Shown one piece after another: positions 7,046 through 61,751 of a DNA stretch of 64,000 nucleotides. The stretch comes from a virus. The translations under genes and the position numbers were made by a program. Positions within the stretch are counted from its first letter, which is position 1. Each line of letters starts with the position of its first letter. Below the pieces are notes generated by a model. It was given only the letters and a program-made list of their open reading frames with translations. It did no database searches and was not told the DNA's origin. Where the stretch lies: positions 62,001 through 126,000 of IMG/VR virus record IMGVR_UViG_3300026512_000002; one strand, 5' to 3'.

Positions 7046-7141
7046 ATCGTTTGTTAAAAATTAAAAAAAAAGTTAAATATATATTATACGTGTATATAGC
7101 AATATCGCTATACTTTAATTATTCCGTAGGAGGAAATATGA
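7046..7141 (+). repeat. 96-bp leader repeat, copy 2
   Basis: Perfect copy of 6224-6319, ending in the start codon of the gene at 7138. It carries the putative promoter and ribosome site shared by both genes. Confidence 0.9.
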
Positions 7142-7782
7142 GAGATCAAATTATTGAATTATTAAGAAATGTAAAATGGCAACGTAGGCAGGATTATGAA
7201 CGCCTATTAAAATTAAAAAAAGAATACATTGATGATCAGATATATGATCATCAATGTCGTATAGAGAAAACTGAAAAAGATATCGTGCCATCATACGATA
7301 TCAATGATTACAAAATCACTAAATATAAAGATGAGTATGATGGCGGATACAGAAGTATATATGTGTCTAAAACATATATATACTTTCAACATGTTAAGTC
7401 GGGAAAAAGATTTTGTACCGACACAACATACGGTGAGGACTATGCTAGAAAGCATGCCAAGGACATAGTCCAAGGACATCTAAATTTTCGAAAAACTCAA
7501 GATTTGGAAGATCTTGAGTTTATTAAAAAATGGAAAGAACGAATACCTATATTATCAAAAGTATATTATTATGTATATGGTGCTAATATAGATCGTGCTA
7601 AAAATATAGAAATATATTTTCATAACATAGCAATATCTATCACACGAAATTGTTATGATTATGAATATATTTTAGAAATAGAAAATGTCGAAAAAATGAA
7701 CATAGTCAAAGCGCCCGAAGTTAAAGGGCTCACTAATCAAGAAGCATTTCAAATAATTAGTGTTTTCAATAAGCGTTTCTAA
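7138..7782 (+). CDS. Hypothetical protein with hairpin-rich coding sequence, 214 aa
   Basis: Starts MRDQIIELLRNVKWQRRQ at the end of the 96-bp leader repeat, after GTAGGAGGAAAT. The N-terminus (to about residue 50) looks like a charged helix; no family is recognised. The coding DNA is unusual: CATTGATGATCA/TGATCATCAATG (12 bp), GATATCGT/ACGATATC, GTATATAT/ATATATAC, GGACTATG/CATAGTCC and CTCAAGAT/ATCTTGAG all form short-loop hairpins within the gene. Its 3' end and terminator are duplicated in truncated form at 6926. It precedes two more genes of the same hairpin-rich type. Confidence 0.7.
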   Translation: MRDQIIELLRNVKWQRRQDYERLLKLKKEYIDDQIYDHQCRIEKTEKDIVPSYDINDYKITKYKDEYDGGYRSIYVSKTYIYFQHVKSGKRFCTDTTYGEDYARKHAKDIVQGHLNFRKTQDLEDLEFIKKWKERIPILSKVYYYVYGANIDRAKNIEIYFHNIAISITRNCYDYEYILEIENVEKMNIVKAPEVKGLTNQEAFQIISVFNKRF

Positions 7783-7788
7783 ATATCA

Positions 7789-7829
7789 GGGCAACGTTCT
7801 GTTGCCCGTCCCTCCCCTTTTTTTTTTCT
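7789..7829 (+). terminator. Intrinsic terminator, copy 2
   Basis: GGGCAAC/GTTGCCC hairpin followed by a long T run, identical in stem to the terminator at 6990. Confidence 0.9.
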
Positions 7830-7906
7830 TTCTACATATATAATATATCGTTATGAAGATTTATTTAAATATATATTATATATATAATATCTTTATAGGA
7901 GGAAAT

Positions 7907-8389
7907 ATGAAAAAAGATATTAAAATATCCTCCTGGGAGGATATTAAACAAAAAAGATCCATAAGGAACGTTCTTATGGATCTTTTAAAAAAAATAGAAG
8001 GACGGGCGTATCCTTCTATTTACCAATCATTTACCAGTTTTACTCAATGGTCAGATTTCGAAGACTATTGTGAAACTAGTAGAATTATCGTCCTATGGGA
8101 CGATAATAAAGATTGGTATTTGCTTTTAGGGATTAGTGGTCGTTCCTTAGAAGTGATTGATTTAGCCTCATTACGAGGTTTAAGTCATATTAATATGGAA
8201 GAACTTTTAAAAAAGTTCTTTTTAATATTAAAAGACCATAATATTGAAAAAATTTTAATGGATATGAGGGAAACCACCTCATATAAATTCATTAAGATTT
8301 TTGATAATAATATTTGGAAAATTATTAAAGACCAATCATATGATTGGGAAGGTGAAATTTTCCATGATATTATTATCAGAAAAAGATAA
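7907..8389 (+). CDS. Hypothetical protein with hairpin-saturated coding sequence, 160 aa
   Basis: The ATG at 7907 follows TATAGGAGGAAAT; an in-frame ATG at 7853 lacks a site. The product begins MKKDIKISSWEDIKQKRS and is not recognised; its C-terminal half has a faint GNAT-like look, which is speculation. The gene is a chain of hairpins: AATATCCTCC/GGAGGATATT, AAAAGATCCATAAG/CTTATGGATCTTTT (14 bp), AAATAGAAGGA/TCCTTCTATTT (11 bp), ATTATCGTCC/GGACGATAAT (10 bp), ATATGAGG/CCTCATAT and a 16-base palindrome at 8332. The stop codon lies inside a 12-bp hairpin. Confidence 0.7.
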   Translation: MKKDIKISSWEDIKQKRSIRNVLMDLLKKIEGRAYPSIYQSFTSFTQWSDFEDYCETSRIIVLWDDNKDWYLLLGISGRSLEVIDLASLRGLSHINMEELLKKFFLILKDHNIEKILMDMRETTSYKFIKIFDNNIWKIIKDQSYDWEGEIFHDIIIRKR

Positions 8390-8407
8390 ACGCCCTTATC
8401 TTTTTCT
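8378..8407 (+). terminator. Stop-codon-spanning 12-bp hairpin
   Basis: AGAAAAAGATAA pairs with TTATCTTTTTCT around ACGCCC. The 5' arm contains the stop codon of the preceding gene. It ends in a T-rich arm rather than a separate T tract. Confidence 0.6.
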
Positions 8408-8415
8408 GTGTTCCC

Positions 8416-8499
8416 AAAAAAAAAGGCAGCTATTCATATTCATATTCATATTATTATTTTTTAGTGATCTTTTTTAATATCGCTGCCTTTTTTTTTTAT
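8416..8499 (+). terminator. Long-loop terminator with ATTCAT repeats
   Basis: An A run plus GGCAGC (8425-8430) pairs with GCTGCC (8482-8487) followed by a T run. The intervening 51 bases are AT-only-like and include three copies of TATTCA. It lies between the gene ending at 8389 and the large structured RNA region. Confidence 0.65.
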
Positions 8500-8584
8500 A
8501 TACTACATATATAATATATATTTATATATATAGTATATACGCATACTATGTATATATATTATGCGTATATATATATACATATAT

Positions 8585-9062
8585 AAGTTGGCATATAAGA
8601 GATATCTCACCCTAGATGGGTAGCTAACAAGTATATGTATAAATTTTAAGTAGAGGACTAGTGGGCATTGCCAAAGGGCGTGATGCATTATAAGCATTAA
8701 GACTACAAATACTACTACTTAACGTCACCTTAACGTTACTAGGGAGACTAAAGCAAAAAAGAGTCTATAAATATATTCACCGTCTAGAGGGAGACGTAAA
8801 AATATCATAACTAGGAAAATTGGTCACCGTGGAGAGCGTAGTTGACAATTTCCTATGTTCCCTGATTAGGAGTACACTATTATCCTATAATAAAGAATAG
8901 TGAAAGGCGTTAGAAGGAGTAAGTAACGCTGAAGTCGAAACAATCTTTATACTGGAGGAGTATAAGTTATAGTAGGCGCAATCCATGATAGTTTCATCAT
9001 GGCGGTATATAGGTCAACATATATATCGATATAATGTAAATCTGAGACTAATATAGGAGGTT
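8585..9062 (+). ncRNA. Large structured RNA candidate (leader of the 802-aa gene or stand-alone)
   Basis: About 480 bases without a plausible ORF but full of helices: CGTCT/AGACG (8781-8796), a long bulged helix 8812-8826/8842-8855, CACTATT/AATAGTG (8875-8902), GGCGTTA/TAACGCT (8906-8930), TTATACT-GGAGG-AGTATAA (8947-8965) and CCATGAT/ATCATGG (8983-9002). Composition is less AT-rich than ordinary intergenic DNA here. It runs up to the ribosome site of the gene at 9065. It has the size and density of the large ornate phage RNAs (GOLLD and ROOL classes), but membership in either is not established. Confidence 0.6.
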
Positions 9063-9064
9063 AT

Positions 9065-11473
9065 ATGTCCAGGTTTATGAGAAAAAAACAAGAGATCGAG
9101 TATGAAATCGCAGCGTACACTAGCGATGGAATGCTCGATCTCAATGACGCTATGCAAGTATCTCAATGTCGAGATAGTATAGTGTCTGTTAGAGAGAATC
9201 TTAAAAGATCCAAAGTATTTTGGGGAGAGGCTCTCTTAACACAGTTTCTAGATGCTGTGTCTAAAAAAACATCTAAATCGTTCTTTAGTGTATTCACATT
9301 AGAGAGCGAGGTCCCCTTACTAAAAGACATGTTAGGGTGGCCAGTGAACTATGCTGAAGTAGTTCACTATGCGGAAGTGAGGTGGAATTCGCAGTTAGTA
9401 ACACCTTCGAAGAGAAGATTTTATCCGAAGGATGCTGCTAATTATTACTACGATTTTGCAAATCTTAGTGATAAACCTTATTCAATAAATTTCTTAGCTA
9501 AAGACATTAGTAAGGTTAAGAATTTATTGAACATCTGGGCCGAAAACCATGGCCGGACTGCTACTATGGTAGATGTAGCAGAATTCTTTACTTTTGTACG
9601 GAGTAGAGAAATGGTAAGTAAAAGAGCTATGAAAAAACTCTTTTACTTTAAGGTTGTCCAAACCTTAAAATTGGACAATAGACTTTTAGAAAGCGAATTT
9701 AAGTTAGGAAATAAATTTGCTGTATACGAGTCTACTAAATTTGATCTTCGATTACTATTCACCACTTTTGGTGGTGATGTAGGAATGGTAAAAGATGCAT
9801 TAGCATATGTCCACAAGCTAATGCGTGATTATAATGTAGAAAGTTATAATTACGGAGAACAAATTTGGGGACTATTTTCGCATGTAGATTGGTATTATTA
9901 TACCGTGATACTGCGAAATCGTCCAACAACAAATGTGGACGGACTATGTACAACCCTTTATAAACTTAGAGACGCCTCTAGTAGGATCGAAAAGTTTAAA
10001 AAGGAAATAGTTAAATTCATTAGAATTCCTGAATTTTCGAATTTAGAAGATGATTTTAACTGTTATTATTTCCAAGACAGATATTTGTCTCGGAAATATG
10101 TGAACATAGTTCAAAAAAAGATAGCAGAAACAAACTCATTGTTACCCGCAGTGAAAGTTTTTGCTAATCTTGATATACCTAGATCTGAATTCTCCAATTC
10201 AGTATATGGGTATATAAAATTCCTAAGTAAAAAGAGTATATCAGAAAAAGCAACTACGATATACTCAAATTACTTAGGTAGAAGACCTAGTGTCGATCTC
10301 GGCAAAGGTATGGAGCATGGTTATAATTATATGGCCAAAAGTTCTATCCTGAGAAAGATCTTAGGCATGATAGATAATAAAGCCGCTTGGAAGGTTTTTA
10401 CATCTATTATAAAGTCCTTTAGGAAAGCTAACCCCGGCACAGTTGTCGAGGAACATGCTATTTTAGGGGCGCTTAGTATAGCTGATATTTTTGGTACTGC
10501 TTGGAAAAGCACCTTACCAAAAACAGCTAACGAAAATGGAAAACTTGTAATAGAACAACCTTCTATTACTTGGTTGAACAATTTCGGGTTGCAGTATAAT
10601 GGAACTGCAACTGCTGAGGAAAAAGTCCTTATGAGTAATATCTTGAAAAAGAGAAAAACTTATAAGGCTTCTGGAAACAATATTTCAATATTGGAGAGTG
10701 ACCTAGAGTTCTTCTCAAAAATACTGGAAAGGAGTTTCAAGAATAAAAAACTTATAATATCCAAATTAGGAAATAATCCTAAATTAAAGGATATTGTAAG
10801 TATACTTGATGCCGTTTTATATCCGGGATTAAGTATTGAAGTTGGCTATTGGGCTAGCCAATTTTCATTATCTGTAGATGATGCAGAATATTTGCAAAAA
10901 TTTATGGATACAAATGATTACTTTAAAAACTATGAAGACTTGTCTATAAAGACTAGTAATAATAGTTATAAAGTATCAAAGAGCGGCTATAGTATAGTCC
11001 GTCTCTTAGCCCACGACACAGAAGGTGCTGTATTGGGTAAACACACCGGTTGTTGTCAACACCTGCAAGGTGCAGCTGATAGTTCTGTTAGATATGGCTA
11101 CAAACAATCTAACAGCTTCTTCTTTAAGGTTTTAAATAAATCTAATGAAGTTGTGGCTATAAGTTGGGCCTGGGTGGATAGTAAAAGTAATCTTGTTTTC
11201 GACAATGTAGAACGAAAACATGGAAGTGATGTAGCTAATATCATTGATATAGTTGCAGAATATGCTTTCACTTTTGCTGGAAGATTTAATTCTGTCCAAA
11301 TAGGTCTTGGATTTGGGGGTTATATCTTCGATGGCTTGAATGAAAAGTTCGCACCGGTACTATCATCGGATATGGGAACTTTTCTTATTGGCAATCCTTA
11401 TACGGATGCTGCTAATAGTAGAGTATATTTGGTCCCTCCAAGGGGAGCCTTATATGCTAAAGCCATCATATAA
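9065..11473 (+). CDS. 802-aa protein of unknown function, hairpin-saturated gene
   Basis: Starts MSRFMRKKQEIEYEIAAYTS after ATAGGAGGTTAT. The first about 600 residues are helical with no recognised domain. The C-terminal 170 residues contain LGKHTGCCQHL (near residue 657), then FFFKVLNKSNEVVAISWAWVD and VFDNVE, a beta-strand pattern reminiscent of acyltransferase-like (GNAT) folds with an added Cys pair; this is inference. The coding DNA is a nearly unbroken series of RNA hairpins from end to end, for example 9343-9368, 9616-9648, 10222-10278 (two nested helices), 10547-10569, 10750-10801 and 11085-11115. Base composition is visibly richer in G and C than most neighbours. Confidence 0.75.
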   Translation: MSRFMRKKQEIEYEIAAYTSDGMLDLNDAMQVSQCRDSIVSVRENLKRSKVFWGEALLTQFLDAVSKKTSKSFFSVFTLESEVPLLKDMLGWPVNYAEVVHYAEVRWNSQLVTPSKRRFYPKDAANYYYDFANLSDKPYSINFLAKDISKVKNLLNIWAENHGRTATMVDVAEFFTFVRSREMVSKRAMKKLFYFKVVQTLKLDNRLLESEFKLGNKFAVYESTKFDLRLLFTTFGGDVGMVKDALAYVHKLMRDYNVESYNYGEQIWGLFSHVDWYYYTVILRNRPTTNVDGLCTTLYKLRDASSRIEKFKKEIVKFIRIPEFSNLEDDFNCYYFQDRYLSRKYVNIVQKKIAETNSLLPAVKVFANLDIPRSEFSNSVYGYIKFLSKKSISEKATTIYSNYLGRRPSVDLGKGMEHGYNYMAKSSILRKILGMIDNKAAWKVFTSIIKSFRKANPGTVVEEHAILGALSIADIFGTAWKSTLPKTANENGKLVIEQPSITWLNNFGLQYNGTATAEEKVLMSNILKKRKTYKASGNNISILESDLEFFSKILERSFKNKKLIISKLGNNPKLKDIVSILDAVLYPGLSIEVGYWASQFSLSVDDAEYLQKFMDTNDYFKNYEDLSIKTSNNSYKVSKSGYSIVRLLAHDTEGAVLGKHTGCCQHLQGAADSSVRYGYKQSNSFFFKVLNKSNEVVAISWAWVDSKSNLVFDNVERKHGSDVANIIDIVAEYAFTFAGRFNSVQIGLGFGGYIFDGLNEKFAPVLSSDMGTFLIGNPYTDAANSRVYLVPPRGALYAKAII

Positions 11474-11475
11474 AA

Positions 11476-11509
11476 AAAAAGAAAGGGTGAAAACCCTTTC
11501 TTTTTTTTA
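11476..11509 (+). terminator. Intrinsic terminator
   Basis: GAAAGGGT/ACCCTTTC around GAAA, followed by eight or more T residues, directly after the 802-aa gene. The A run upstream lets it work toward the minus strand as well. Confidence 0.9.
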
Positions 11510-11552
11510 TATATAATTGTAACAATTTTACCAACCTACTATAATCATATAC

Positions 11553-12731: not shown

Positions 12732-12767
12732 ATCACCACCTATATAATTTTTTTTTCAATTTACCAT

Positions 12768-40047: not shown

Positions 40048-40584
40048 TTAGTAGATTTTACTTTTTTTAAGCTCAATAATTTTTTTAATAATATTTTTTT
40101 TTATTCCATATCTGTTCCAATAATCTCTAATCAAATTAGTTGTGGTTAACAACTTTATTTGATTATTATCAGATAAGAAACATTTACTAATATATTTTTC
40201 TACTAACTTTGGTGTAGTTAGTAATTTTTGCTCAGCCTCATCCGATAGGGTATGTACTTCCGAATATTTTATTATTAGTTCCTGTGTAGTTAGTAGTTTT
40301 ATTTGATTTTCATCTGATAAAGGATACCAGATGATATACTTTTCTACTAACTCTGGTGTAGTTAGTAGTTTCTGTTCAGCTTCCTCTGACAAGCTATATC
40401 TTTTAATATATTTTTCTACTAACTTTGGTGTAGTTAGTAGTTTCTGTTCAGCCTCATCTGATAATGCATATCTTTCGATATACTTTGAGACCAATGTTGT
40501 TGTTAATAATAATTTTAACTGGTCTCTTTCTAATAGTTCATGTTTGTAGATACATTCTTTTTCGATTTTTTTTAAGTTGTTCAT
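40048..40584 (-). CDS. 24-residue-repeat protein, 178 aa
   Basis: About six copies of a 24-residue unit with core (E/N)(A/Q)(E/I)(Q/K)LLTTPKLVEKYI.(R/K)Y.LSD, followed by a capping segment IIKKIIELKK. It is the same repeat as in the three plus-strand genes 42196-46300, placed in the opposite orientation. The units look alpha-helical and should build a solenoid. Function is not known. TTGGAGGAAAT precedes the start. Confidence 0.8.
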   Translation of the reverse strand: MNNLKKIEKECIYKHELLERDQLKLLLTTTLVSKYIERYALSDEAEQKLLTTPKLVEKYIKRYSLSEEAEQKLLTTPELVEKYIIWYPLSDENQIKLLTTQELIIKYSEVHTLSDEAEQKLLTTPKLVEKYISKCFLSDNNQIKLLTTTNLIRDYWNRYGIKKNIIKKIIELKKSKIY

Positions 40585-42096: not shown

Positions 42097-42195
42097 ATAA
42101 GAACATTTGTCTTACAATTATTGTAAAACAAATGTTCAACATCCTATGAAATGAAAGAGATCTTATTAAAAAAAACATTTATTATTGGAGGAAAT

Positions 42196-42684
42196 ATGAG
42201 CGAGTGTAATGAAATGGAAAAAATGGTAGTAGAAACGAGTATCGTTAATAAAGATGATTTAGTAGATGAATTGTCTAGTGAAGACCAATTAAAACTATTA
42301 ACTACTCCAAAATTGGTAATGGAATATATTGATAAGTATTATTTATCAGATGAAGCAGAATTGGAGTTGTTAACTACATCGGAACTAGTGATGAAATATA
42401 TTCAGAAACATAGTTTGTCGGATGAAATGGAGCTTAAACTATTAACTACATCGGAACTAGTGATGAAATATATTCAGAAACATTATTTATCAGAGGAAGC
42501 TGAGTTGAAACTACTGATTACACCAGAATTACTAACGGCATATATTGATAAATATAATTTATCAAGTGAGAATCAATTAAAACTATTAACTACATCAGAG
42601 TTAGTGGAGCAGTATATACATAAATATTATATGGATAGAGGTACTGTTAAAAAGATTATTGAACTTAGGAAAAATCTTAGTTAA
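42196..42684 (+). CDS. 24-residue-repeat protein, 162 aa
   Basis: Starts MSECNEMEKMVVETSIVNKDD after ATTGGAGGAAAT; the frame from 42151 is leader. Contains five to six 24-residue repeats (SDEAELELLTTSELVMKYIQKH.L) and the C-cap YYMDRGTVKKIIELRKNLS. The leader AAAAACATTTATTATTGG just before the ribosome site is repeated exactly before the next gene. Pairs with the other repeat proteins; function unknown. Confidence 0.8.
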   Translation: MSECNEMEKMVVETSIVNKDDLVDELSSEDQLKLLTTPKLVMEYIDKYYLSDEAELELLTTSELVMKYIQKHSLSDEMELKLLTTSELVMKYIQKHYLSEEAELKLLITPELLTAYIDKYNLSSENQLKLLTTSELVEQYIHKYYMDRGTVKKIIELRKNLS

Positions 42685-42711
42685 AAAAAAACATTTATTA
42701 TTGGAGGAAAT

Positions 42712-43908
42712 ATGAGTAAATGGGATAGAATAGAAGAAATTGCTAATAAGATAAAATATATTGTTAAACATAATTTATCAAAGGAAGACGAGTTGGAAAT
42801 GTTAACTACTCCTGAAATATTAACATTATATATTAGTAAGCATAGGCTATCTAATGAGGGAGAGTTGAAATTATTAATTACTCCTGAACTTTTAGAAATA
42901 TATATTAGTAAATATAGACTATCTAATGAGGGAGAGTTGAAATTATTGATTACTTCTGAACTTTTAGAACCATATATTAGTAAATATAGTTTATCAGATG
43001 AAAATCAATTGAAATTATTAACCACACCAGAGTTAGTAGTTTTATATATTAACAAATATTATTTATCAGAAAAAAATCAATTGAAATTATTAACCACTCC
43101 TGAATTAATAGAGTTGTATATTCGTAAGCATAGTTTATCAGATGAAAATCAATTGAAATTATTAACCACTCCTGAATTAGTAGAGATATATATTAATAAA
43201 TATTATTTATCAGATGAAAATCAATTGAAATTATTAATCACTCCTGAATTAGTGGAAACCTATATTGATACACATTATTTATCCAATGAGGGGGAGTTAA
43301 AGCTTTTGACTACTACTTGGTTAATTAAAGAATATATTATTAGATATAATTTATCAGAAAAAGGGCAATTAAATCTATTAACTACTCCTGAGCTAATTAA
43401 ACTATATATCAATGAATGTCATTTATCAGAGAAAGGAGAGTTGGAATTACTAACTACTTCTAAGTTAGTAAAATGCTATATTAGTAAACATTACTTGTCA
43501 AATAAAGGGGAATTGGAACTATTATCTACTCTTGAGCTAATTAAACTATATATCAGTAGACATTATTTATGTGACGAGGGAGAATTAAAATTGTTGACTA
43601 CTCCTGAATTAATAAAGTTATATATTGATAGATATGATTTATCGGGTAAGAACCAATTGAAATTGTTAACCACTCCTGAATTAGTAGAGTTATATATAAC
43701 TAAATATAGGTTATCAGAAAAAAATCAATTGAAATTATTAATCACTTCTGAATTAGTAGAGTTATATATAACTAAACATTATTTATCAAATGAAAATCAA
43801 TTGAAATTATTAACCACTCCTGAATTAGTAGAGTTATATATTCGTAGATATGTTATGGATACAAATATTATTAAAGCAATCATTAAACTTAGGAGAAATC
43901 ATGAGTAA
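42712..43908 (+). CDS. 24-residue-repeat protein, 398 aa
   Basis: A short N-terminus MSKWDRIEEIANKIKYIVKH leads into about fifteen 24-residue repeats with consensus LSDENQLKLLTTPELVELYI.KY and ends in VMDTNIIKAIIKLRRNHE, the shared C-cap. The leader and ribosome site duplicate those of the upstream gene. The last codons overlap the start of the 799-aa paralogue. Confidence 0.85.
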   Translation: MSKWDRIEEIANKIKYIVKHNLSKEDELEMLTTPEILTLYISKHRLSNEGELKLLITPELLEIYISKYRLSNEGELKLLITSELLEPYISKYSLSDENQLKLLTTPELVVLYINKYYLSEKNQLKLLTTPELIELYIRKHSLSDENQLKLLTTPELVEIYINKYYLSDENQLKLLITPELVETYIDTHYLSNEGELKLLTTTWLIKEYIIRYNLSEKGQLNLLTTPELIKLYINECHLSEKGELELLTTSKLVKCYISKHYLSNKGELELLSTLELIKLYISRHYLCDEGELKLLTTPELIKLYIDRYDLSGKNQLKLLTTPELVELYITKYRLSEKNQLKLLITSELVELYITKHYLSNENQLKLLTTPELVELYIRRYVMDTNIIKAIIKLRRNHE

Positions 43909-46300
43909 ATGGGATAAAATAGAAGAAATTGTTAATCATAAGTTATCAGAAAAAAAACAATTAGAATTATTAACTACTTCTGAATTGGTAGAAACATATA
44001 TTGGTAAATATCAGTTATCAGAAAAAAATCAATCGAAATTACTAACTACTTCTGAGTTAGTAAAACTATATATAAATAAATATAATTTATCTGATGATGG
44101 GGAATTGAAACTTTTAACTACTCCTGAATTAATAAAATTATATATTAGTAAATATATTTTATCAGATAAAGGAGAATTGGAATTATTAACTACCCCTGAG
44201 TTAGTAATTTCATATATTAATAAATATGTTTTATCAGATAGAGGAGAATTGAAATTTTTAACTACTCTTGAATTAGTAGAAACATATATTCGTAAACATA
44301 GTTTATCAAAAGAGGGAGAGTTAGAATTACTAACTACTCCTGAGTTAGTAAAACTATATATAAATAAATATAATTTATTTGATAAGGGAGAGTTAAAGTT
44401 TCTAACTACTCCTGAGTTAGTAAAACTATATATAAATAAATATAATTTATTTGATAAGGGAGAGTTAAAGTTTCTGACTACTCCTGAGTTGGTAGAATTG
44501 TATATTTGTAAACATAGATTATCTGATGAAGGAGAATTAAAACTTTTAACTACCCCTAAGCTGATAAAACTATATATTGATAAACATTATTTATCATATA
44601 AAGGAGAATTAAAACTTTTAACTACCCCTAAGCTGATAAAACTATATATTGATAAACATTATTTATCATATAAAGGAGAATTAGAATTGTTAACTACTCC
44701 TGAGTTAGTAAAGTTGTATATTAGTAAATATGGTTTATCAGATAAAGGTGAATTGGAACTTCTGACCAATCTTGAGTTAGTAGAGTTATATATTAATAAA
44801 TATTATTTATCAGATGAAAATCAATTGAAATTATTAACTACTCCTGAACTGGTTAATATATATATTAGTAAACATAGGTTATCAGGAAAAGGAGAGTTGA
44901 AATTATTAACTACTACTGAATTGGTTGGAAAATATATTAGTAAGTATAGTTTGTCAGAAAAAGGAGAGTTGGTATTATTAACTACTACTGAGTTAATAAA
45001 ATTATATATTGACAAATATTATTTATCAGATAAAAATCAATTGAGGTTAATAATTGCTCCTGAATTAGTAAAAATATATATCAATGAACATTATTTGTCA
45101 AATGAAAACCAATTGATTTTATTAACTACTTCTGAGTTAGTAAATATGTATATTGATAAATATAGATTATCAGAGGAGGGAGAGTTAAAACTTTTGACTA
45201 CTCCGGAATTGATTAAAAAATATATTAGTAAACATTACTTATCAGATAAAGGAGAATTAGAATTATTAACTACTCATGAGTTGATCGAGCTATATGCTCG
45301 TAAACATAAATTATCTGATGAAGGAGAATTGAAACTTTTAACTACTCCTAAGCTGGTAAAATCATATATTGATGAACATCACCTATCAGATAAAGGAGAA
45401 TTAGAATTATTAACTACTCCTGAGTTGATCGAATTATATATTAGTAAATATACTTTATCAAATGATGGGGAATTGAAACTTTTAACTACTTCTAAGTTGA
45501 TAGAGTTATATACTCGCCAACATAGATTGTTTGATAAAAATCAATTAAAACTATTAACTACACCGGAATTAGTGATGAAATATATTCAAAAACATAACCT
45601 GTCAAATGAAGTAGAATTAGAACTACTAACCACACCGGAGCTAATAATAGAGTATATAAAGAGACATAGTTTATCAAATGAAGGTGAGTTAAAACTATTA
45701 ACTACACCAGAGTTAATAATAAAATATGTTCAGAAACATAACCTGTCAAATGAAATAGAGTTGGCATTATTAACCACGCCTGAGTTCGTAATAAAATATA
45801 TTCAAACACATAGTTTATCGGATGAAGCAGAATTAGAACTACTAACCACACCGGAAATGATAATGGAATATATCAAGAAGTATAACCTGTCGGATGAAGC
45901 AGAATTAGAACTACTAACCACACCGGAACTAATAATGGAATATGTTCAGAAACATAACCTGTCGGATGAAGCAGAATTAGAACTACTAACCACATCGGAA
46001 ATGATAATGGAATATATCAAGAAGTATAACCTGTCGGATGAAGCAGAATTAGAACTACTAACCACACCGGAGCTAATAATGGAATATGTTCAGAAACATA
46101 ACCTGTCGGATGAAGCAGAATTAGAATTATTAACCACACCGGAATTAGTGAAGCGATATATTAACACACATTCTTTATCAAGTGAAAATCAATTAAAACT
46201 ATTAACTACACCCAAGTTGGTAAAACAGTACATGTCTAAATATGATATGGATAGAGATACTGTTAAAAAGATTATTGAATTTAGGGAAAATCTTAGTTAG
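43901..46300 (+). CDS. Giant 24-residue-repeat protein, 799 aa
   Basis: Starts MSKWDKIEEIVNHKLSEK at 43901 after CTTAGGAGAAATC, overlapping the previous gene by eight bases. It has roughly 32 repeats of 24 residues and the C-cap MDRDTVKKIIEFRENLS. Neighbouring units are sometimes near-identical in DNA (44345-44488; 44545-44690; a 144-bp double unit repeated at 45832-46120), showing recent expansion. The first 27 or so units use GEL(K/E)LLTTPEL; the last use DEAELELLTTPE, like the gene at 42196, so the gene may be a fusion of two repeat lineages. Confidence 0.85.
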   Translation: MSKWDKIEEIVNHKLSEKKQLELLTTSELVETYIGKYQLSEKNQSKLLTTSELVKLYINKYNLSDDGELKLLTTPELIKLYISKYILSDKGELELLTTPELVISYINKYVLSDRGELKFLTTLELVETYIRKHSLSKEGELELLTTPELVKLYINKYNLFDKGELKFLTTPELVKLYINKYNLFDKGELKFLTTPELVELYICKHRLSDEGELKLLTTPKLIKLYIDKHYLSYKGELKLLTTPKLIKLYIDKHYLSYKGELELLTTPELVKLYISKYGLSDKGELELLTNLELVELYINKYYLSDENQLKLLTTPELVNIYISKHRLSGKGELKLLTTTELVGKYISKYSLSEKGELVLLTTTELIKLYIDKYYLSDKNQLRLIIAPELVKIYINEHYLSNENQLILLTTSELVNMYIDKYRLSEEGELKLLTTPELIKKYISKHYLSDKGELELLTTHELIELYARKHKLSDEGELKLLTTPKLVKSYIDEHHLSDKGELELLTTPELIELYISKYTLSNDGELKLLTTSKLIELYTRQHRLFDKNQLKLLTTPELVMKYIQKHNLSNEVELELLTTPELIIEYIKRHSLSNEGELKLLTTPELIIKYVQKHNLSNEIELALLTTPEFVIKYIQTHSLSDEAELELLTTPEMIMEYIKKYNLSDEAELELLTTPELIMEYVQKHNLSDEAELELLTTSEMIMEYIKKYNLSDEAELELLTTPELIMEYVQKHNLSDEAELELLTTPELVKRYINTHSLSSENQLKLLTTPKLVKQYMSKYDMDRDTVKKIIEFRENLS

Positions 46301-46934: not shown

Positions 46935-47156
46935 ATGGCTAAAAAAATAAATTATCATTCTTTTATTAAGATGGTTGAGAAAAACCATCTTGTAGAAGAA
47001 TGGTTCGCGACTGGTGTCGCAATTGCTTGTACTGAAAAATGTGCAAGTAATTGCGACATAGCCAATGTGGGGAGGTATGTTAATTGTGCCGCCCCATGGC
47101 GTGCCGGTCGCGAATTTATTGAAAAGAAATTAGGGGTGATCGTAATAGACGATTAA
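46935..47156 (+). CDS. Cys-rich small protein, hairpin-saturated gene, 73 aa
   Basis: Start MAKKINYHSFIKMVEKNH after TTGGAGGTCATT. The protein has Cys residues in ACTEKCASNCD and VNCAAPW; no family recognised. The whole gene folds: AAGATGGTT/AACCATCTT, GTCGCAATT with CTTG pairing to CAAG and AATTGCGAC, GCCA+TGGGG with CCCCA+TGGC, and GAAAAGAAATTAGGG with the 3' sequence CCCTAGTTTCTTTTC, which includes the stop region. The 5' leader also folds (GAGTCA/TGACTC). Composition is richer in G and C than neighbours. Confidence 0.65.
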   Translation: MAKKINYHSFIKMVEKNHLVEEWFATGVAIACTEKCASNCDIANVGRYVNCAAPWRAGREFIEKKLGVIVIDD

Positions 47157-47290
47157 CCCTAGTTTCTTTTCCTGGTAGTCGACAGCTACCATGAGTCAAA
47201 AAATGATGTCACGCTCAACCCGGAGCGGAAAAGAGATAGGGTATACAACCACACTATGTGGTTGGAAAGAAACCATTAGGTTTCTTTTTT
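47155..47290 (+). ncRNA. Structured 3' region with switch-like alternative pairing and terminator
   Basis: The element CCCTAGTTTCTTTTCC (about 47157-47172) can pair upstream with GAAAAGAAATTAGGG inside the gene or downstream with GGAAAAGAGATAGGG. Inside the second fold are GGTAG/CTACC and GCTC/GAGC hairpins, making a multi-branch RNA of about 85 bases. Then CAACCACA/TGTGGTTG and the terminator AAAGAAACC-ATTA-GGTTTCTTT plus T run (47266-47292) follow. It may be a processed small RNA or a regulatory 3' UTR. Confidence 0.5.
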
Positions 47291-47391
47291 TTTAATTTAA
47301 TAAATAATTTGGATATATATTAATACCATAATAACATATATAGTTATTATAATGTCTATCTTGTTTCGATCTATGTTTATATGGAGGTTTT

Positions 47392-52662: not shown

Positions 52663-52693
52663 TATAGTATACGACTTAGTTTAATTGATAAAA

Positions 52694-52730
52694 AAAAGAA
52701 TGGGAATAGTTGTAACAACTGCTTCCCTTT
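52694..52730 (-). terminator. Intrinsic terminator (minus strand)
   Basis: GGGAA plus AGTTG pair with CAACT plus TTCCC, and on the minus strand the stem is followed by a T run. Terminates the structured unit containing the gene at 52856. Confidence 0.75.
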
Positions 52731-52855
52731 ACAATATCCATTACAACAAAACAGATACGGTATCAGCTATTCTTTATAGCTCCTTTGTGGTGTTACCACT
52801 AACGCCTATTACTGCGAATCCCTATTAGTTGCCGGAATTAAGCGTTTATCAATCA

Positions 52856-53221
52856 TTACATGTTGTTGATTGATTTTGTTCCACCTAATGATATGAACAT
52901 TGGGGTATTTAACCCGTCATCACTATCAGTACCCTGGAAAGGGTTGACAATGACTTCCTGTTCATTCACAATGTAAACAACACCTTTTTTCAAAGGTAGT
53001 AAATGGGCTTGTACGTTTCCATTTACTATGCCGAATGAAAATTCGGCTGTTGATATCATTGTGATATCATCAGGCGCTACTACATAGTTGCCTGGCTGAA
53101 GATGAAATCTTCTAGCACTCGCAATTATTATTGCGGCAACTACATGTAGTAGGCATTCCTCATTACTCATGAGGTGCCTTAAGTTCATATTCCTAGTTTT
53201 CATATTCATTGCGTAACACAC
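52856..53221 (-). CDS. Hypothetical protein, hairpin-saturated gene, 121 aa
   Basis: MCYAMNMKTRNMNLRHLMSN; several ATGs lie close together and no strong ribosome site decides between them. The product has a beta-rich middle (FHLQPGNYVVAPDDITMIS) and is not recognised. The DNA is hairpin after hairpin: GTAAATGG/CCATTTAC, GCCGAAT-GAAA-ATTCGGC, GATATCA/TGATATC, GAAGAT/ATCTTC, ACCTTT/AAAGGT, AGGCA+CCTCA/TGAGG+TGCCT. A structured leader and 3' region flank it, ending in the terminator near 52700. Confidence 0.6.
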   Translation of the reverse strand: MCYAMNMKTRNMNLRHLMSNEECLLHVVAAIIIASARRFHLQPGNYVVAPDDITMISTAEFSFGIVNGNVQAHLLPLKKGVVYIVNEQEVIVNPFQGTDSDDGLNTPMFISLGGTKSINNM

Positions 53222-53224
53222 AAC

Positions 53225-53465
53225 TCATAATCCAACCTTCTATCCGAACTTAGCGTAAATCACTCCCCAATGGAACTATTACGTCTACCCAGCATTAAGT
53301 TTTACATCTATGCTGGCTTTAGATAGATGTTTGTAGTTGTAAATTAACATGATCGTTGACTATCATGCTCAAACATTTACGGATCATATAAAACGATCAC
53401 CTCGTATATATGTCCTACTACAACACCTTAATATATGTTTAAATATAGCTATTATGCTATCATGT
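53225..53465 (-). ncRNA. Structured leader of the 52856 gene
   Basis: About 240 bases with ACATCTAT/ATAGATGT, CATGAT/ATCATG, and a CCAGCAT/ATGCTGG helix that competes with the first because it shares bases. The arrangement permits two folds, as in riboswitch-type leaders. No ligand class is recognised. Confidence 0.45.
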
Positions 53466-55612: not shown

Positions 55613-55649
55613 ATTTAATATGTGTTTAATATGTAAGTTAGTTTTTTAA

Positions 55650-55669: not shown

Positions 55670-55704
55670 ATATTATGATTGAACCATATATTTTGGAGGA
55701 TTAT

Positions 55705-57681: not shown

Positions 57682-57752
57682 AAAACGAAATAAATAACAA
57701 ATGCATATTATAATACTATAATGATACATGTTTCATATAATGGAGGTTAAAT

Positions 57753-57980
57753 ATGAAAAAAATGACAAAACGTGAAAAAATTAGTTTAGGTGAACTTGAA
57801 ACACTTTTTTCAGACAATAAAATTGTTAAAAATTCTTTTATATCTGATATTGATAAATATAAGTTTATCGCAGTTACAATCAATGGTGATTATGAATTTA
57901 TCGATAATATATCAGGCGTGGATACAACAAATGTGTCTGTATTTAAAACTAAGAATATTAGACGTAGGTTTATGAAATGA
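57753..57980 (+). CDS. Hypothetical small protein, 75 aa
   Basis: MKKMTKREKISLGELETLFS after TGGAGGTTAAAT. Basic, no known motif. Its stop overlaps the primase start (ATGA), so the two are translationally coupled; a role with the primase is plausible. Confidence 0.65.
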   Translation: MKKMTKREKISLGELETLFSDNKIVKNSFISDIDKYKFIAVTINGDYEFIDNISGVDTTNVSVFKTKNIRRRFMK

Positions 57981-59011
57981 CAAACGATATGGATTTATAT
58001 GTTATTTTGAGAAATAATTTACATCTCGTGCGTTTAACAAATGATAGTTCTGAAATTATAATACGTTGCCCTATATGTGGTGATTCTAAAAATCAAAACC
58101 ATGCACATTTTTACATTATGAATAAATATCCATTCTACTATAATTGTAAGAAATGTGAAAGTTCAGGAATATTTACATCAGATCTACTACAATCTGTAAA
58201 TGTCTATGATCCAAATATGGCATTATATATCAATAAATCTAAAATGGATTATATAGATAAATATGGGTTGAGTTCAATACGACATCTTAAAAAATTTAAA
58301 AAAGTAACAGTACCTACTAAATATAGTAGAACTCCTAATAATTTAAATAAAATAGAATATCTTAAAAATCGTTTAAATGTAGATGAAATTACTACTGAAA
58401 TGTTGGTTAAGTTTAAAATAATAATTGATTTTAAGGAATTTTATAAAATTAATAAACTTGGTAAAATAAGAGGTGAGAATAGAAATAGTTTAACAAATAA
58501 GGAAATTTTAAATTATCGTAAGTATGATAGATCTCATATAGGATTTCTATCAACAGATTCAACACATGTTATATTTAGAAATATAGATAAATATGGTAAA
58601 AGATATGATACATTTAGAGTGATTAAAAATGATAAAATTGCTGCTAAAAAATATTACACTATTAAAAATACTATAGACATGAGAAGATTGGACTTGGTAG
58701 TCAATATATGTGAAGGCGTGTTTGATGCTATTGGTATATATAGGAATGTGTATAATAATAATATTTCTGATAATGTTGTGATATTGGCAGTTAATGGTAA
58801 GGATTATACAAGTGTGATAAAAGAGTATATTAAAAAAGGTTTTATCGATGCTACTTTTAATATATATTCAGATAGCGAAGTTGGTCTTGATGTATATAGG
58901 AAAATGTTGTATAAATTACCGTTTAATAGTATACCTGTTATTTATAATAAAAAAGGTGATGATTTTGGTGTTAACGATGTTGAAATTATGAACACTGTGG
59001 CTACAATATGA
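57977..59011 (+). CDS. DNA primase (zinc finger plus TOPRIM)
   Basis: 344 residues. N-terminal CHC2-type zinc finger: CPICGDSKNQNHAHFYIM then YYNCKKCESSG (about 29-65). The TOPRIM core has NICEGVFDAIGIYRN with the catalytic Glu near 246, VILAVNGKDYTS, and NIYSDSEVGLDVYRK near 297. It would make RNA primers at the fork opened by the helicase at 38339. Length is short for a bacterial primase and usual for a phage one. Confidence 0.88.
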   Translation: MTNDMDLYVILRNNLHLVRLTNDSSEIIIRCPICGDSKNQNHAHFYIMNKYPFYYNCKKCESSGIFTSDLLQSVNVYDPNMALYINKSKMDYIDKYGLSSIRHLKKFKKVTVPTKYSRTPNNLNKIEYLKNRLNVDEITTEMLVKFKIIIDFKEFYKINKLGKIRGENRNSLTNKEILNYRKYDRSHIGFLSTDSTHVIFRNIDKYGKRYDTFRVIKNDKIAAKKYYTIKNTIDMRRLDLVVNICEGVFDAIGIYRNVYNNNISDNVVILAVNGKDYTSVIKEYIKKGFIDATFNIYSDSEVGLDVYRKMLYKLPFNSIPVIYNKKGDDFGVNDVEIMNTVATI

Positions 59012-59062
59012 ATGTAAAAATTGTGATATAACATATAAATAATACTTAAAAGGAGGTGTGTC

Positions 59063-59623
59063 ATGGACATGAATAGATATGCTATGAAAATAATAAAAGA
59101 ACTGGACAATGGCCAGGATTTTGGATTAAAAAAAGCTGTATCAGATGCATATATGTATTTAATCGAATTCCTATCTGATAACCCAAGAGGTTCTAATAAA
59201 ATTAAATTGCATAATCCGGGTATAGCAATATCATTTATTATGGAAAAATTATCATTTTTTCATAGTGGTTTGGTTGATGATTATAGTTGGAGACCAAATG
59301 CTAATGAAAGAGGTAAACAAACTGCTATGGCCACAGGTAGAAACGATAGGTTTATAGATACAACGGTTATGGTTTTAACAGTCAATGATGTTCAAATTAA
59401 ACCGTGGATTCAGAAAAATAATACAAACATAGATGCTAGTAAAAGTACCGATATAGCATTGGCTGTTAGAGATATTAATAGGACTTTATCGTTTGAAACG
59501 GCTTGGAAAAATTATTTAAAAGATAAATCCATTAACTCTTTTAAAAATTATATTGCGAAAACATATGGAGTGTATAATTTATATGATACTAACCAATATG
59601 GTAATAATACTTTTAGAAGATAA
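59063..59623 (+). CDS. Hypothetical protein of replication cluster, 186 aa
   Basis: MDMNRYAMKIIKELDNGQDF after AAGGAGGTGTGTC. No recognised domain; mid-region ATGRNDRFIDTTVMVLTVNDVQ. Lies between primase and RNase H, so a replication-linked role is possible. Confidence 0.6.
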   Translation: MDMNRYAMKIIKELDNGQDFGLKKAVSDAYMYLIEFLSDNPRGSNKIKLHNPGIAISFIMEKLSFFHSGLVDDYSWRPNANERGKQTAMATGRNDRFIDTTVMVLTVNDVQIKPWIQKNNTNIDASKSTDIALAVRDINRTLSFETAWKNYLKDKSINSFKNYIAKTYGVYNLYDTNQYGNNTFRR

Positions 59624-59714
59624 GTAAGTATAAATACAGATGTCGCATACACTATTTACGTGTATGCGACATTTTGTGATGGTGAAAAAATGGTTGATGA
59701 TAAAAGGAGGTTAT

Positions 59715-60200
59715 ATGTTATATTATTTGTTTACAGATGGTTCTAGTAAAAAACATTTAAATGAATCTAAAAAGTTTTATGGTGGAGCAGCATATGTTTT
59801 AACTAATGATGATTTTAAGGTGTTGCGAAGCTCTGCTACTAATTCCAAAGACACTACTAATAATAAAATGGAACTAACAGCGTTCATATATGGTATCATT
59901 GATAATAAAGACATTTTCAAGGAAAATGATAATATAACAATAGTCAGTGATTCCAAATATTTAGTAGATGGTGCTACTAGATGGATGTACAATTGGATTG
60001 ATAGTAATTGGACTAAAGCAAATGGAAAAACAGTTAGTAATTTAGAATTATGGAAGTTAATACATAAAATTGTTTCTAAATACAGTATCGAATTTATTTG
60101 GATAAAAGCTCATACTAAATCTATTGATATGTATAGTAAAATGAATGCTATAGTAGATGAAATGGCTGGATATGCAATGAGGCGTGTTTATAATAAATGA
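59715..60200 (+). CDS. rnhA: Ribonuclease HI
   Basis: Start MLYYLFTDGSSKKHLNESKK after AAAAGGAGGTTAT; the upstream frame is leader. The four acidic active-site positions are present: TDGSS (Asp8), KMELTA (Glu near 53), VSDSKYLVDGATRW (Asp near 79) and a C-terminal VDEMA. WIKAHT supplies the His loop. It removes RNA from RNA-DNA hybrids, such as primers. Confidence 0.92.
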   Translation: MLYYLFTDGSSKKHLNESKKFYGGAAYVLTNDDFKVLRSSATNSKDTTNNKMELTAFIYGIIDNKDIFKENDNITIVSDSKYLVDGATRWMYNWIDSNWTKANGKTVSNLELWKLIHKIVSKYSIEFIWIKAHTKSIDMYSKMNAIVDEMAGYAMRRVYNK

Positions 60201-60208
60201 GGTGAGTG

Positions 60209-60970
60209 ATGGCTAGATTATGTTCCAAGCACATATACCAATCACCGGATATTATATATTTGAAAAATACCAATATTATCGAATATGATATGAAAGATGC
60301 AGGGCTATCTATAATAAAAGAATTTAAATTATTAGATACGGTAACTATAAATTATTTGGATAACCTTAACAAAACTGATAAATTGGTTGCTATTGGTCGC
60401 AAATATATAGGTAATAAAACTTTTTCTAAAAAACATGTTATAGGGTTTAGCAAAGCTAGATGTTTGTTTGTAGATAATAATAGCATTAAAGATTACGAAA
60501 TATTGTCAATTAAAAAGGATGCTATATTTGTAATAAATAAAGTTGCTGATGATTTAAAAATAGGTAAGAATATACTATTTGTTTCTAAACATATATACAC
60601 ATCATATATGAAATTATTTAATTTAGAGATATATTATAATTCTGTAGACGATACTATAGATATAAAAGGTATTGGTAATAACATATATCTCCATAAAAAT
60701 AGTTTTATTGAACTAATTAAAGATTTTATGAGAATGAAGGAAAATAATAATGGTAGTATTAATCACATGTACGATATATTTAAACACATTGTTGTAAAAT
60801 ATAAAAGTATGCGATATACCGTATCATATTATAGGGAATTTAATAATTTATCACTATATAAGCTTAATATTGGTAACAGTTACTATATTAAGGACATAGG
60901 CGATAAAAATATAATAGATATATCATATAATTTAAGATTGTTGTTTGAAATAATGCGTATTATGTTATAA
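60209..60970 (+). CDS. Hypothetical protein, possible divergent polymerase-type fold, 253 aa
   Basis: Start at 60209 (MARLCSKHIYQSPDIIY) five bases after GAGGTG. Phrases NIIEYDMKDAGLSIIKEFKLL (near 25) and YEILSIKKDAIFVIN (near 96) have the layout of a family I recall from other phages; the spaced YD and KKDAIF elements loosely recall polymerase motifs A and C. No claim of activity is made. It follows RNase H in the replication cluster. Confidence 0.55.
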   Translation: MARLCSKHIYQSPDIIYLKNTNIIEYDMKDAGLSIIKEFKLLDTVTINYLDNLNKTDKLVAIGRKYIGNKTFSKKHVIGFSKARCLFVDNNSIKDYEILSIKKDAIFVINKVADDLKIGKNILFVSKHIYTSYMKLFNLEIYYNSVDDTIDIKGIGNNIYLHKNSFIELIKDFMRMKENNNGSINHMYDIFKHIVVKYKSMRYTVSYYREFNNLSLYKLNIGNSYYIKDIGDKNIIDISYNLRLLFEIMRIML

Positions 60971-61046
60971 TCTTAAAAATATTTCAAATATATATTAGTA
61001 CAATGTCACAATGTTGTGATGTATTAATATATTATTTGGAGGAAAT

Positions 61047-61703
61047 ATGAAGAATTTTTCAATTATGATTGGTGATAATATTATGAAAACAATTCAACAA
61101 GGATTGAATATGTTGAATATCAATACCATTACTAATAAAATCGATGATCTGAATACAGATGTCGAGGATTTATTAATAGCTTCAGAAAACATGTTTAAAA
61201 CACATGTTATATCTCAAGCTGCAGTTCGAGTCAAACAAGGTTATATGCTCGTAACTTTGTTTGAAAATGGTAAAGTAGATATTCACATCAATAATATTGA
61301 GGAAGTGGATATGGATTTATTAAAATTAATGGTTTTTGAAACTATTGATTTTAGTAATTTTAAAATTGCTAAAACAGATGCAAAATTAATAGGTTTAATT
61401 AAACCTATTAATGTAAAAAAAGTTGTAGGCGGCGGATATGTCGTTGTTGACAACGAACATGTGTATTTGATCAATAAAAATGATCAAATATTAAAATTTA
61501 AAAAAAACAATATAAAGACAAAAGGAGGTGTTATATATAAACACAACCGAAGAGGTCGAAAGTTTGACGCCTCTGTATCTTTGTATAAAGATGATGATAA
61601 TCAAATATATCTTGAACTATATTCGAAAGTTCAAGATATATTTAATGTTCTTTCAGAGTTAAAAAGTGATGTTTATTGCGGATTATTAGCAATGAACATT
61701 TAA
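61047..61703 (+). CDS. Hypothetical protein, hairpin-saturated gene, 218 aa
   Basis: MKNFSIMIGDNIMKTIQQGL after TTGGAGGAAAT. Not recognised; middle region VGGGYVVVDNEHVYLINK. Coding DNA is packed with perfect stems: TCAAACAAGGTTA/TAACTTTGTTTGA (61231-61264, 13 bp), a 28-base perfect palindrome at 61385-61412, AAATATATCTTGAACT/AGTTCAAGATATATTT (61603-61643, 16 bp) and others. Ends in a 14-bp terminator. It belongs to the hairpin-rich gene set though it lies in the replication cluster. Confidence 0.7.
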   Translation: MKNFSIMIGDNIMKTIQQGLNMLNINTITNKIDDLNTDVEDLLIASENMFKTHVISQAAVRVKQGYMLVTLFENGKVDIHINNIEEVDMDLLKLMVFETIDFSNFKIAKTDAKLIGLIKPINVKKVVGGGYVVVDNEHVYLINKNDQILKFKKNNIKTKGGVIYKHNRRGRKFDASVSLYKDDDNQIYLELYSKVQDIFNVLSELKSDVYCGLLAMNI

Positions 61704-61706
61704 TAT

Positions 61707-61751
61707 AAGCAGTGGTAGATTATATACTATCTACCACTGCTTTTTTTTTTT
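61707..61751 (+). terminator. Strong intrinsic terminator
   Basis: AAGCAGTGGTAGAT pairs with ATCTACCACTGCTT around TATATACT and is followed by a ten-T run. The run abuts the ribosome site of the next gene. Confidence 0.9.

Follow-up and report, generated by a model that had tools for sequence, protein, structure and literature searches.

Genes coded as near-continuous mRNA hairpins in an AR9/PBS1-like jumbo phage

Introduction

In bacteria and the DNA viruses that infect them, mRNA structure generally counts as a weak and diffuse bias or as a matter of local regulatory elements. The 5' stem-loop stabilisers of bacteria belong to the terminal hairpins that guard mRNA against exonucleases, and the large, highly folded phage RNAs ROOL and GOLLD, both in Rfam, are non-coding. 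The local folding biases known to us are weak and genome-wide. In animal cells, GORS reduces RNA sensing (PMC3950689). Here we describe six genes of an AR9/PBS1-like jumbo phage (dsDNA, 228 kb) in which the coding sequence itself is folded almost throughout; a search of the open-access literature found no description of a phage gene class of this kind.

Materials and methods

The source is IMG/VR record IMGVR_UViG_3300026512_000002 (227,696 bp). The window is the whole 64,000-nt stretch that was analysed, corresponding to record positions 62,001-126,000; coordinates are window positions unless marked 'genome', which denotes the whole record. The folding score is the mean local folding energy in 60-nt windows, compared with 30 synonymous-codon shuffles per gene for 64 window genes. 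Inverted repeats were counted if perfect, at least 8 bp long and with a loop of at most 20, with the expectation taken from 200 shuffles. In the permutation test, real codon changes between diverged homologues were compared with the same changes placed at random. The early-promoter consensus used for comparison was taken from PMC5312081.

Results and discussion

Six genes with extreme folding

The hairpin genes, their attached structured segments and one further outlier are as follows.

7138-7782, plus strand: hairpin gene, 214 amino acids, no family match; z -7.6 (synonymous shuffles), 7 perfect inverted repeats against 1.0 expected
7907-8389, plus strand: hairpin gene, 160 amino acids, predicted GNAT-like fold; z -7.4; paired with the CCQH gene in other phages
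8560-9064, plus strand: structured non-coding leader of gene 9065, 505 nt; z -2.7 against dinucleotide shuffles
9065-11473, plus strand: hairpin gene, 802 amino acids, with a long N-terminal region and a C-terminal CCQH domain of predicted GNAT-like structure; z -14.2
46935-47156, plus strand: hairpin gene, 73 amino acids, the most stable of all; z -4.3 (codon shuffles) and -7.0 (dinucleotide shuffles), transcript z -14.9
47157-47292, plus strand: structured 3' trailer and terminator of gene 46935
52856-53221, minus strand: hairpin gene, 121 amino acids, cassette payload; z -6.4
61047-61703, plus strand: hairpin gene, 218 amino acids, no family match; z -8.8, longest perfect stem 16 bp
40048-40584, minus strand: seventh gene with a folding excess, encoding a short tandem-repeat protein related to 42151-46300 (blastp); z -6.4

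The six genes that the earlier note had singled out as near-continuous RNA hairpin occupy ranks 1-6 among the 64 window genes, lying -3.7 to -6.3 kcal/mol per 60-nt window from their synonymous-codon shuffles (z -4.3 to -14.2). Dinucleotide shuffles (z -6.5 to -12.7) and shuffles within 25-codon blocks (z -4.1 to -12.3) concur, and the claim is confirmed under all three shuffle types. Apart from these genes and 40048-40584, whose excess is probably a by-product of its repeats and a separate case, every window gene lies less than 2 kcal/mol from its shuffles. The RNA polymerase gene and the other control genes have no hairpin excess, which bears out the impression that such neighbours lack the trait. 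A scan of the whole record (222 ORFs, 227,696 bp) returned the same six outliers together with genome 28913-29179, the sister of the 52856 cassette.

Perfect inverted repeats number 7, 6, 11, 2 and 5 in the five hairpin genes other than 46935, against 1.0, 1.1, 1.1, 0.1 and 0.8 expected; none of the 200 shuffles attains these counts, and the longest repeats are 10-16 bp. Gene 46935 has a single perfect repeat at these thresholds but contains long imperfect nested stems, and its transcript folds at -196.8 kcal/mol, compared with -105.6 for shuffles. The repeats do reach stop codons, as had been noticed by eye: the stops lie within stems in 7907 (a 13-bp stem) and 9065, and that of 52856 falls in a stem's loop. 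The near-continuous local hairpins are produced by the choice of codons and, less strongly, by that of amino acids. The window has no Rfam match above the gathering score, with chance matches only at a relaxed threshold, and a known RNA family or intron was rejected; likewise, no Rfam family scored above chance in the leader 8560-9064.

Start regions, promoters and terminators

Each of the six genes has its own terminator, several begin with a 5' hairpin, and their ribosome sites are strong, as the earlier note had it for all but 52856. Three have an AR9-type early promoter upstream.

7075-7087, plus strand: AR9-type early promoter AAATATATATTAT of gene 7138, exact consensus match
7867-7879, plus strand: AR9-type early promoter of gene 7907
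60986-60998, plus strand: AR9-type early promoter of gene 61047, one mismatch

The motif was not found upstream of 9065, 46935 or 52856. In the related Microcystis phage Ma-LMM01 the published early class (gp054-063) consists mostly of ordinary genes, and the hairpin genes gp064-067 lie just upstream of it, outside the class. The suggestion that hairpin messages are delivered early is partly supported, by the promoters of three genes but not by the Microcystis phage, and early expression was rejected as a general link. Host-takeover genes in general were also rejected as the hairpin class: the first 30 kb of SPO1, takeover module included, is without hairpin genes.

Translation control, in which hairpins would slow ribosomes or silence the message until it is unfolded, was another proposal, and the stems do cross reading frames and some stop codons. 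In the form of start-site hiding it finds no support, as pairing of the Shine-Dalgarno and start region is 0.64 in hairpin genes and 0.67 in control genes, and sequestration was rejected on this ground. Given also the strong ribosome sites and the ability of elongating ribosomes to unwind such stems, we regard translation control as improbable.

Shared modules around different proteins

Two hairpin genes are bounded by sequence modules that recur elsewhere in the record.

7046-7141, plus strand: 5' module with promoter, 5' hairpin, RBS and ATG; 100% identical to 6224-6319
7696-7880, plus strand: 3' module with CDS end, terminator and next promoter; 76% identical to 6926-7088
53164-53463, minus strand: 5' RNA module with leader, start codon and first ~19 codons; genome 28671-28970 is an identical 300-nt copy
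52690-52846, minus strand: 3' RNA module that includes the terminator; 88% identity with genome 29217-29373

Gene 52856 is a cassette: its sister copy has the identical 300-nt 5' module and the 88% identical 3' module around a different protein, and because the same modules bear different payloads the structured RNA seems to act as a chassis. The copy at 6224-6319 precedes a different, non-hairpin repeat gene. Microcystis phages also carry repeated modules; no match was found for the RNA modules in phages (blastn) or for the 3' RNA module in IMG/VR (exact search).

These modules raise the reading that the function lies in the folded RNA itself, as a chassis or ribonucleoprotein packaged, delivered or localised with the message, the protein being its payload. 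The second shared 5' module (6224/7046), the modules of the Microcystis phages and the long structured leaders agree with it. Against it, no stem or motif is common to all hairpin genes, particular stems appear not to be kept in the coding parts, Rfam offers no match, and the shared ends may be simple duplication; we consider it unlikely. The same holds for its fuller form, a doubtful one, in which a modular gene class of structured 5' and 3' modules with hairpin-coded, exchangeable payloads would have passed between unrelated phages along with the CCQH/GNAT-like pair, the folded message acting as a particle with a function of its own (protected, packaged or delivered) beyond that of a template.

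The CCQH/GNAT-like pair and recurrence of the trait

No accepted match to the hairpin-gene proteins was obtained in Pfam, NCBIfam, PADLOC or PHROGs, and no PADLOC profile for known anti-phage or counter-defence systems matched. The 7907 protein is predicted to adopt a GNAT fold (AF2 pLDDT 86; Foldseek probability 1.00; best TM score 0.61, to RimI). The CCQH domain comprises residues ~636-800 of the 802-residue protein and is GNAT-like, with a structure predicted at moderate confidence. Homologues of 7907 adjoin the CCQH gene in four other loci (L027, L035, L069 and L034), and the view that the hairpin-coded proteins are unrelated needs correcting in function, as 7907 and 9065 recur as a conserved pair. 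In L027 a hairpin gene adjoining the CCQH gene belongs to the MYG1 exonuclease family. Peptide patterns revealed no direct relatives in IMG/VR of the whole 802-residue protein, the primase or the helicase.

The hairpin trait recurs in MaMV-DC/DH01, L027, L035, L036, L038, L028 and L043, compared with a base rate of 1/116 genes on other viral contigs and 0/84 bacterial genes. Copies of the CCQH family in phages and prophages (Microcystis phages, Bacteroidota prophages and IMG/VR contigs; GC 31-62%) are laden with hairpins, whereas its long cellular copies are not. The refuting condition set by the earlier note, homologues that keep the proteins but lose the stems, was put to the test: phage homologues retain the hairpins and cellular ones lack them. 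The trait turns up in unrelated phages alongside a single gene family whose cellular copies are without it.

Apparent selection on the message as RNA

It is pairing of the mRNA strand that is favoured, rather than pairing within the DNA. The folding excess is larger in the sense than in the antisense strand in all six window hairpin genes, in 29/33 other phage hairpin genes and in 31/60 controls. Interruptions in Watson-Crick stems are G.U in 16 cases and A.C in 2 in the six genes, against 88 and 75 in other genes. Fold strength is retained across divergence: two Bacteroidota prophage homologues, 41% diverged, gave z -8.4/-7.8 in the permutation test and two Microcystis-phage island genes -6.4/-5.3 and -8.3/-3.4, with 18/18 hairpin comparisons negative and the control at -1.0/-0.3. 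Covariation is weak per pair, with 24 compensatory pairs against 15.6 expected (counted in both directions) and 0.40 against 0.39 kept. With little covariation at 9-20% divergence, a specific conserved fold is disfavoured; fold strength persists while individual stems are replaced. Substitutions in stems between DC and DH01 (41/240 against ~69 expected) were counted in one direction only and are not relied on, the permutation test taking their place.

A mutational artefact, in which genes under little constraint would have their inverted repeats made ever more perfect by template switching at the hairpins, would account for perfect repeats with short loops in accessory, fast-evolving genes under weak per-pair constraint, and some of the G.U excess could result from strand-biased deamination of cytosine. 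It leaves the strand asymmetry and the retention of fold strength beyond permuted changes unaccounted for, and hairpins in which one arm has at least 2 changes and the other has none are not in excess (9 against 10.4). Asymmetry and arm counts led us to reject DNA-level causes (cruciforms, template switching), and the artefact, already disfavoured, is very improbable. Strand asymmetry, retained fold strength and the lack of a template-switching signature together favour selection acting on the mRNA as RNA; with the recurrence in unrelated phages, they support the proposal that message folding itself is selected, as it appears to be.

A likely function in message protection

Nuclease resistance is the most likely function of the hairpin genes, and we put the probability at about even that bulk structure is selected over the whole transcript to this end. 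Leader, coding sequence and trailer would all be folded, so that ribonucleases specific for single strands would act poorly on the message; candidates are RNase Y/E/J of the host or nucleases that infection or defence switches on. No one stem would be essential, the requirement being that little RNA is left single-stranded. Accessory phage proteins would in this way have small, self-contained messages with long lifetimes, in which the structured RNA may also serve as chassis for exchangeable payloads. We count in favour the individual terminators, the 5' hairpins, start regions paired no more than in controls, the payload exchange and the MYG1-family neighbour in L027; the mostly ordinary early class of Ma-LMM01 and the weak per-pair covariation count against. 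Protection does not follow automatically, as hairpins can also give rise to sites for RNase III.

Alternatively, the hairpins may shield the message from defences that target or sense RNA (type III/VI CRISPR, antisense RNA, RNA-sensing abortive systems), or block R-loops or factor-dependent termination. The bulk structure is gene-limited, phage-specific and strand-specific, which counts in its favour, and GORS, which lowers RNA sensing in animal cells, is an analogy (PMC3950689). Essential genes should then be protected too, yet only accessory genes carry hairpins. Microcystis phages show hairpins although cyanobacteria are not known to have Rho, which speaks against the termination part. We judge this alternative to have a small chance of being right.

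Protected or not, certain genes of an AR9-like jumbo phage, of cyanobacterial phages and of Bacteroidota prophages have whole messages constructed as folded RNA, and their cellular homologues do not. They offer a natural, directly testable system for the benefit of bulk mRNA structure to a gene, and the codon-shuffle folding score can serve as a scan for accessory phage genes of unknown function.

Comparison with known systems

AR9/PBS1 jumbo phages share a related RNA polymerase (35% identity) and the early promoter motif, but none of the 189 ORFs of AR9 is a hairpin gene, and a general trait of AR9-like phages was rejected. GNAT acetyltransferases share the predicted fold of the 7907 protein and the CCQH domain; unlike them, both lie outside Pfam and NCBIfam, and the acyl-CoA-binding R/QxxGxG/A loop (canonical RxxGxG) was not seen by eye in their alignments. 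As with bacterial 5' stem-loop stabilisers, several hairpin-gene transcripts begin and end with hairpins, but here structure fills the entire coding sequence too. ROOL and GOLLD are likewise long, highly folded phage RNAs, whereas the hairpin genes are coding and match no Rfam family. Synonymous codon choice shapes local folding here as it does across life (PMC7063772), but in a few extreme genes among normal neighbours. Closest is GORS, in which coding-sequence structure is likewise pervasive beyond shuffled controls, confined to some viruses and a bulk property, not one element. GORS is genome-wide in positive-strand RNA viruses, whereas here it is individual mRNAs of dsDNA phages, from a few genes in each genome (few of 222 ORFs in this record), that are folded; the excess over dinucleotide shuffles is ~56-106% (60-nt windows) against 9-11% for native MNV and HCV (300-nt fragments), figures that are not strictly comparable (PMC3950689). 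The hairpin genes thereby extend a GORS-like phenomenon from RNA viruses to the mRNAs of DNA phages.

Hairpin genes of the window

The viral record is assigned by sequence to the AR9/PBS1-like jumbo phages; its RNA polymerase beta fragments are 35% identical to PBS1 and sites matching the AR9 early promoter without mismatch occur in it (consensus AAATATATATTAT; PMC5312081). Six of its genes are treated here as hairpin genes, i.e. coding sequences with predicted near-continuous RNA hairpins exceeding those of synonymous-codon shuffles:

7138-7782, gene 7138
7907-8389, gene 7907 (160-aa protein)
9065-11473, gene 9065 (802-aa protein; CCQH gene)
46935-47156, gene 46935
52856-53221, minus strand, gene 52856
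61047-61703, gene 61047

All folding was predicted computationally, each gene being scored by its mean local folding energy in 60-nt windows against shuffles preserving protein and codon usage. The six genes, which an earlier note had singled out by eye as exceptionally folded, occupy ranks 1–6 among the 64 genes of the window (z −4.3 to −14.2), with predicted energies 3.7–6.3 kcal/mol per window below their own shuffles; taken singly, the short genes 46935 and 52856 have modest z-scores. Dinucleotide shuffles, a check proposed in the note, and shuffles inside 25-codon blocks agree with the codon shuffles, and local composition is therefore ruled out as the source of the excess. The same genes are again the outliers in the whole 227,696-bp record, with ORFs outside the window called mechanically. 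Five of them have a 5- to 20-fold excess of perfect inverted repeats 8 bp or longer, an excess absent from eight control genes; in the sixth, 46935, the stems are long, nested and imperfect, and the transcript of this gene has a predicted fold of −196.8 kcal/mol versus −105.6 kcal/mol in shuffles. The other genes of the window lack the trait, as the note had judged by eye for some of them, with 40048-40584 alone differing by more than 2 kcal/mol per window; this short tandem-repeat gene, kin of 42151-46300, was left out of the set. In the sequence, each of the six can be read to end in a separate terminator. Other repeats and palindromes are

40048-40584, minus strand, and 42151-46300, plus strand, tandem-repeat protein family with LLTTPKLVEKYI units (about 4 kb, both strands)
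8511-8585, intergenic, long AT-rich palindrome upstream of gene 9065 with a minus-strand early-promoter match inside
L019:2368-2696 (genome piece), tandem repeats where the viral record ends, possibly the reason for the assembly stop

Proteins and cassettes

The proteins had looked unrelated to the author of the note. Four have no recognisable relatives in family searches, but 7907 and 9065 are assigned to a conserved gene pair, since 7907 homologues directly adjoin the CCQH gene in four loci (L027, L035, L069 and L034); the order there is CCQH–partner, versus partner–CCQH in the window. The C-terminal domain of 9065 carries an invariant T.CCQH..GA motif, is absent from Pfam and NCBIfam and has a GNAT-like predicted fold (moderate confidence); the model of 7907 is confidently GNAT-like. 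The sole phage database match of 9065 is Microcystis phage MaMV-DC/DH01. Searching DNA with a degenerate form of the motif and filtering the hits with a three-sequence HMM recovered about 28 homologues from IMG/VR contigs, prophages and bacterial genomes. The domain also occurs in bacterial proteins of 1000–1700 aa (L081, L111, L054, L074, L130 and L149), with no Pfam match in those scanned.

Several cassettes share their RNA ends:

genome 28671-29373 (L011:8671-9373), sister of the 52856 cassette
6224-6319 and 7046-7141, 96-nt promoter/leader/start, 100% identical, the latter belonging to gene 7138
repeat gene at 6319 (to 6912), with WEKWGYENG-type repeats, found too at genome 876-1946
L021:1367-1627, 3555-3756 and 5407-5640, with L152 equivalents, Microcystis phage repeated module (MCPYxTY...HINLDGHRWYVVP tail), fused to the CCQH protein once and otherwise a separate small ORF

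The 52856 transcript and its sister are identical over the first 300 nt, to about the 19th codon, and 88% identical over the last 157 nt; the sister's body differs, encoding an 88-aa protein with two CPxC motifs (CPVC and CPSC). The 3' ends of gene 7138 and the repeat gene at 6319 are related, and repeated modules occur within the hairpin islands of Microcystis phages. Identical or related ends around different bodies thus indicate that payloads are swapped between common RNA ends.

Recurrence in other phages

Homologues that keep the protein and lose the stems would have spoken against the note. Phage copies of the CCQH gene keep their hairpins; the cellular ones (rumen Alphaproteobacteria, Clostridia, Obscuribacterales and others; many are 1000–1700 aa long) have an excess of only −0.6 to +0.1 kcal/mol per window.

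Codon-shuffle folding excess of CCQH genes (kcal/mol per window; z)
L035: −5.55; −18
L036: −4.85; −14
L038: −4.26; −11
MaMV-DC: −3.99; −10
L027: −2.8; −9
L043, Pseudarcicella prophage: −2.46; −7
L028, Flectobacillus prophage contig: −2.14; −8

GC content spans 31–62%, so the trait is not an AT-rich artefact. In the CCQH domain tree most hairpin copies fall in a single group of long-branched phage proteins and others among cellular ones, the label requiring at least 2–4 changes. Neighbours of the CCQH gene are also hairpin genes in several phages: in MaMV-DH01 the run spans L152 7881-20596, with the flanking ligase and chitinase genes unaffected, and L036, L038 and L028 likewise have hairpin neighbours. 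The base rate is 1/116 genes on other viral contigs and 0/84 on bacterial contigs; AR9 has none in 189 ORFs of 80 aa or more. Adjoining the CCQH gene of L027 is

L027:113-1000, phage MYG1 exonuclease family copy (PF03690), strongly hairpin-laden

Selection on RNA structure

The note's proposal of selection on mRNA folding is supported by strand asymmetry and, for the CCQH gene and phage islands covered by the evolutionary tests, by fold strength kept beyond permuted changes. In 6/6 hairpin genes of the window and 29/33 of other phages the mRNA strand has a greater stability excess than the complementary strand; ordinary genes have the mRNA strand ahead in 31/60 (mean difference 0.02). Watson–Crick stems are equal in energy on either strand, and the asymmetry arises because of G.U pairs and loops. 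Stem interruptions number 16 G.U and 2 A.C in the six genes, and 88 and 75 in the phage's other genes. Such asymmetry is not expected from DNA palindromes, which were rejected as the origin. A mutational bias between the strands could imitate some of this asymmetry, but not the retention of folding beyond permuted codon changes. In this permutation, real codon replacements between homologous hairpin genes were reassigned randomly among identical codons; the real sequence folds better in 18/18 comparisons. The effect is strong in long genes: two prophage homologues with 41% divergence give z −8.4 and −7.8, and Microcystis-phage islands give −6.4, −5.3, −8.3 and −3.4. A control gene gives −1.0 and −0.3. 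The compensatory changes sought by the note number 24 pairs versus 15.6 expected, and stem retention is 0.40 versus 0.39; individual stems are scarcely conserved, and in some examples one phage's hairpin is exchanged for a different one at the equivalent position in another. Template switching was rejected, as its expected trace, a surplus of hairpins changed in one arm only, is missing. The amount of structure is kept, not one particular fold.

Possible function

Pervasive structure is thus strand-specifically selected in certain, mostly accessory, phage messages. Of the roles that had been suggested, silencing at initiation is disfavoured, since in the predicted folds start regions are no more paired than in ordinary genes. 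Early delivery fits the early promoters of three window hairpin genes, but the hairpin genes of Ma-LMM01 (gp064-067) lie outside its published early set (gp054-063; PMC5780444), and what the hairpin genes share is not early timing. Protection is the most economical reading: judging by the predicted folds, scant single-stranded RNA together with hairpins at the 5' end and at the terminator would probably let the message resist single-strand-specific ribonucleases. The MYG1-family hairpin gene beside the CCQH gene hints, as a single case, at a link to RNA turnover.

Comparison with known systems

In agreement with the note, no report of a phage gene class of hairpin-built messages was found in the open-access literature. 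The closest analogue is GORS, a bulk, virus-specific property of positive-strand RNA viruses tied to evading RNA sensing (PMC3950689). Both are bulk properties and both exceed shuffled controls; the hairpin genes are nevertheless not a case of GORS, since the structure lies in single mRNAs of dsDNA phages and appears far stronger per window.
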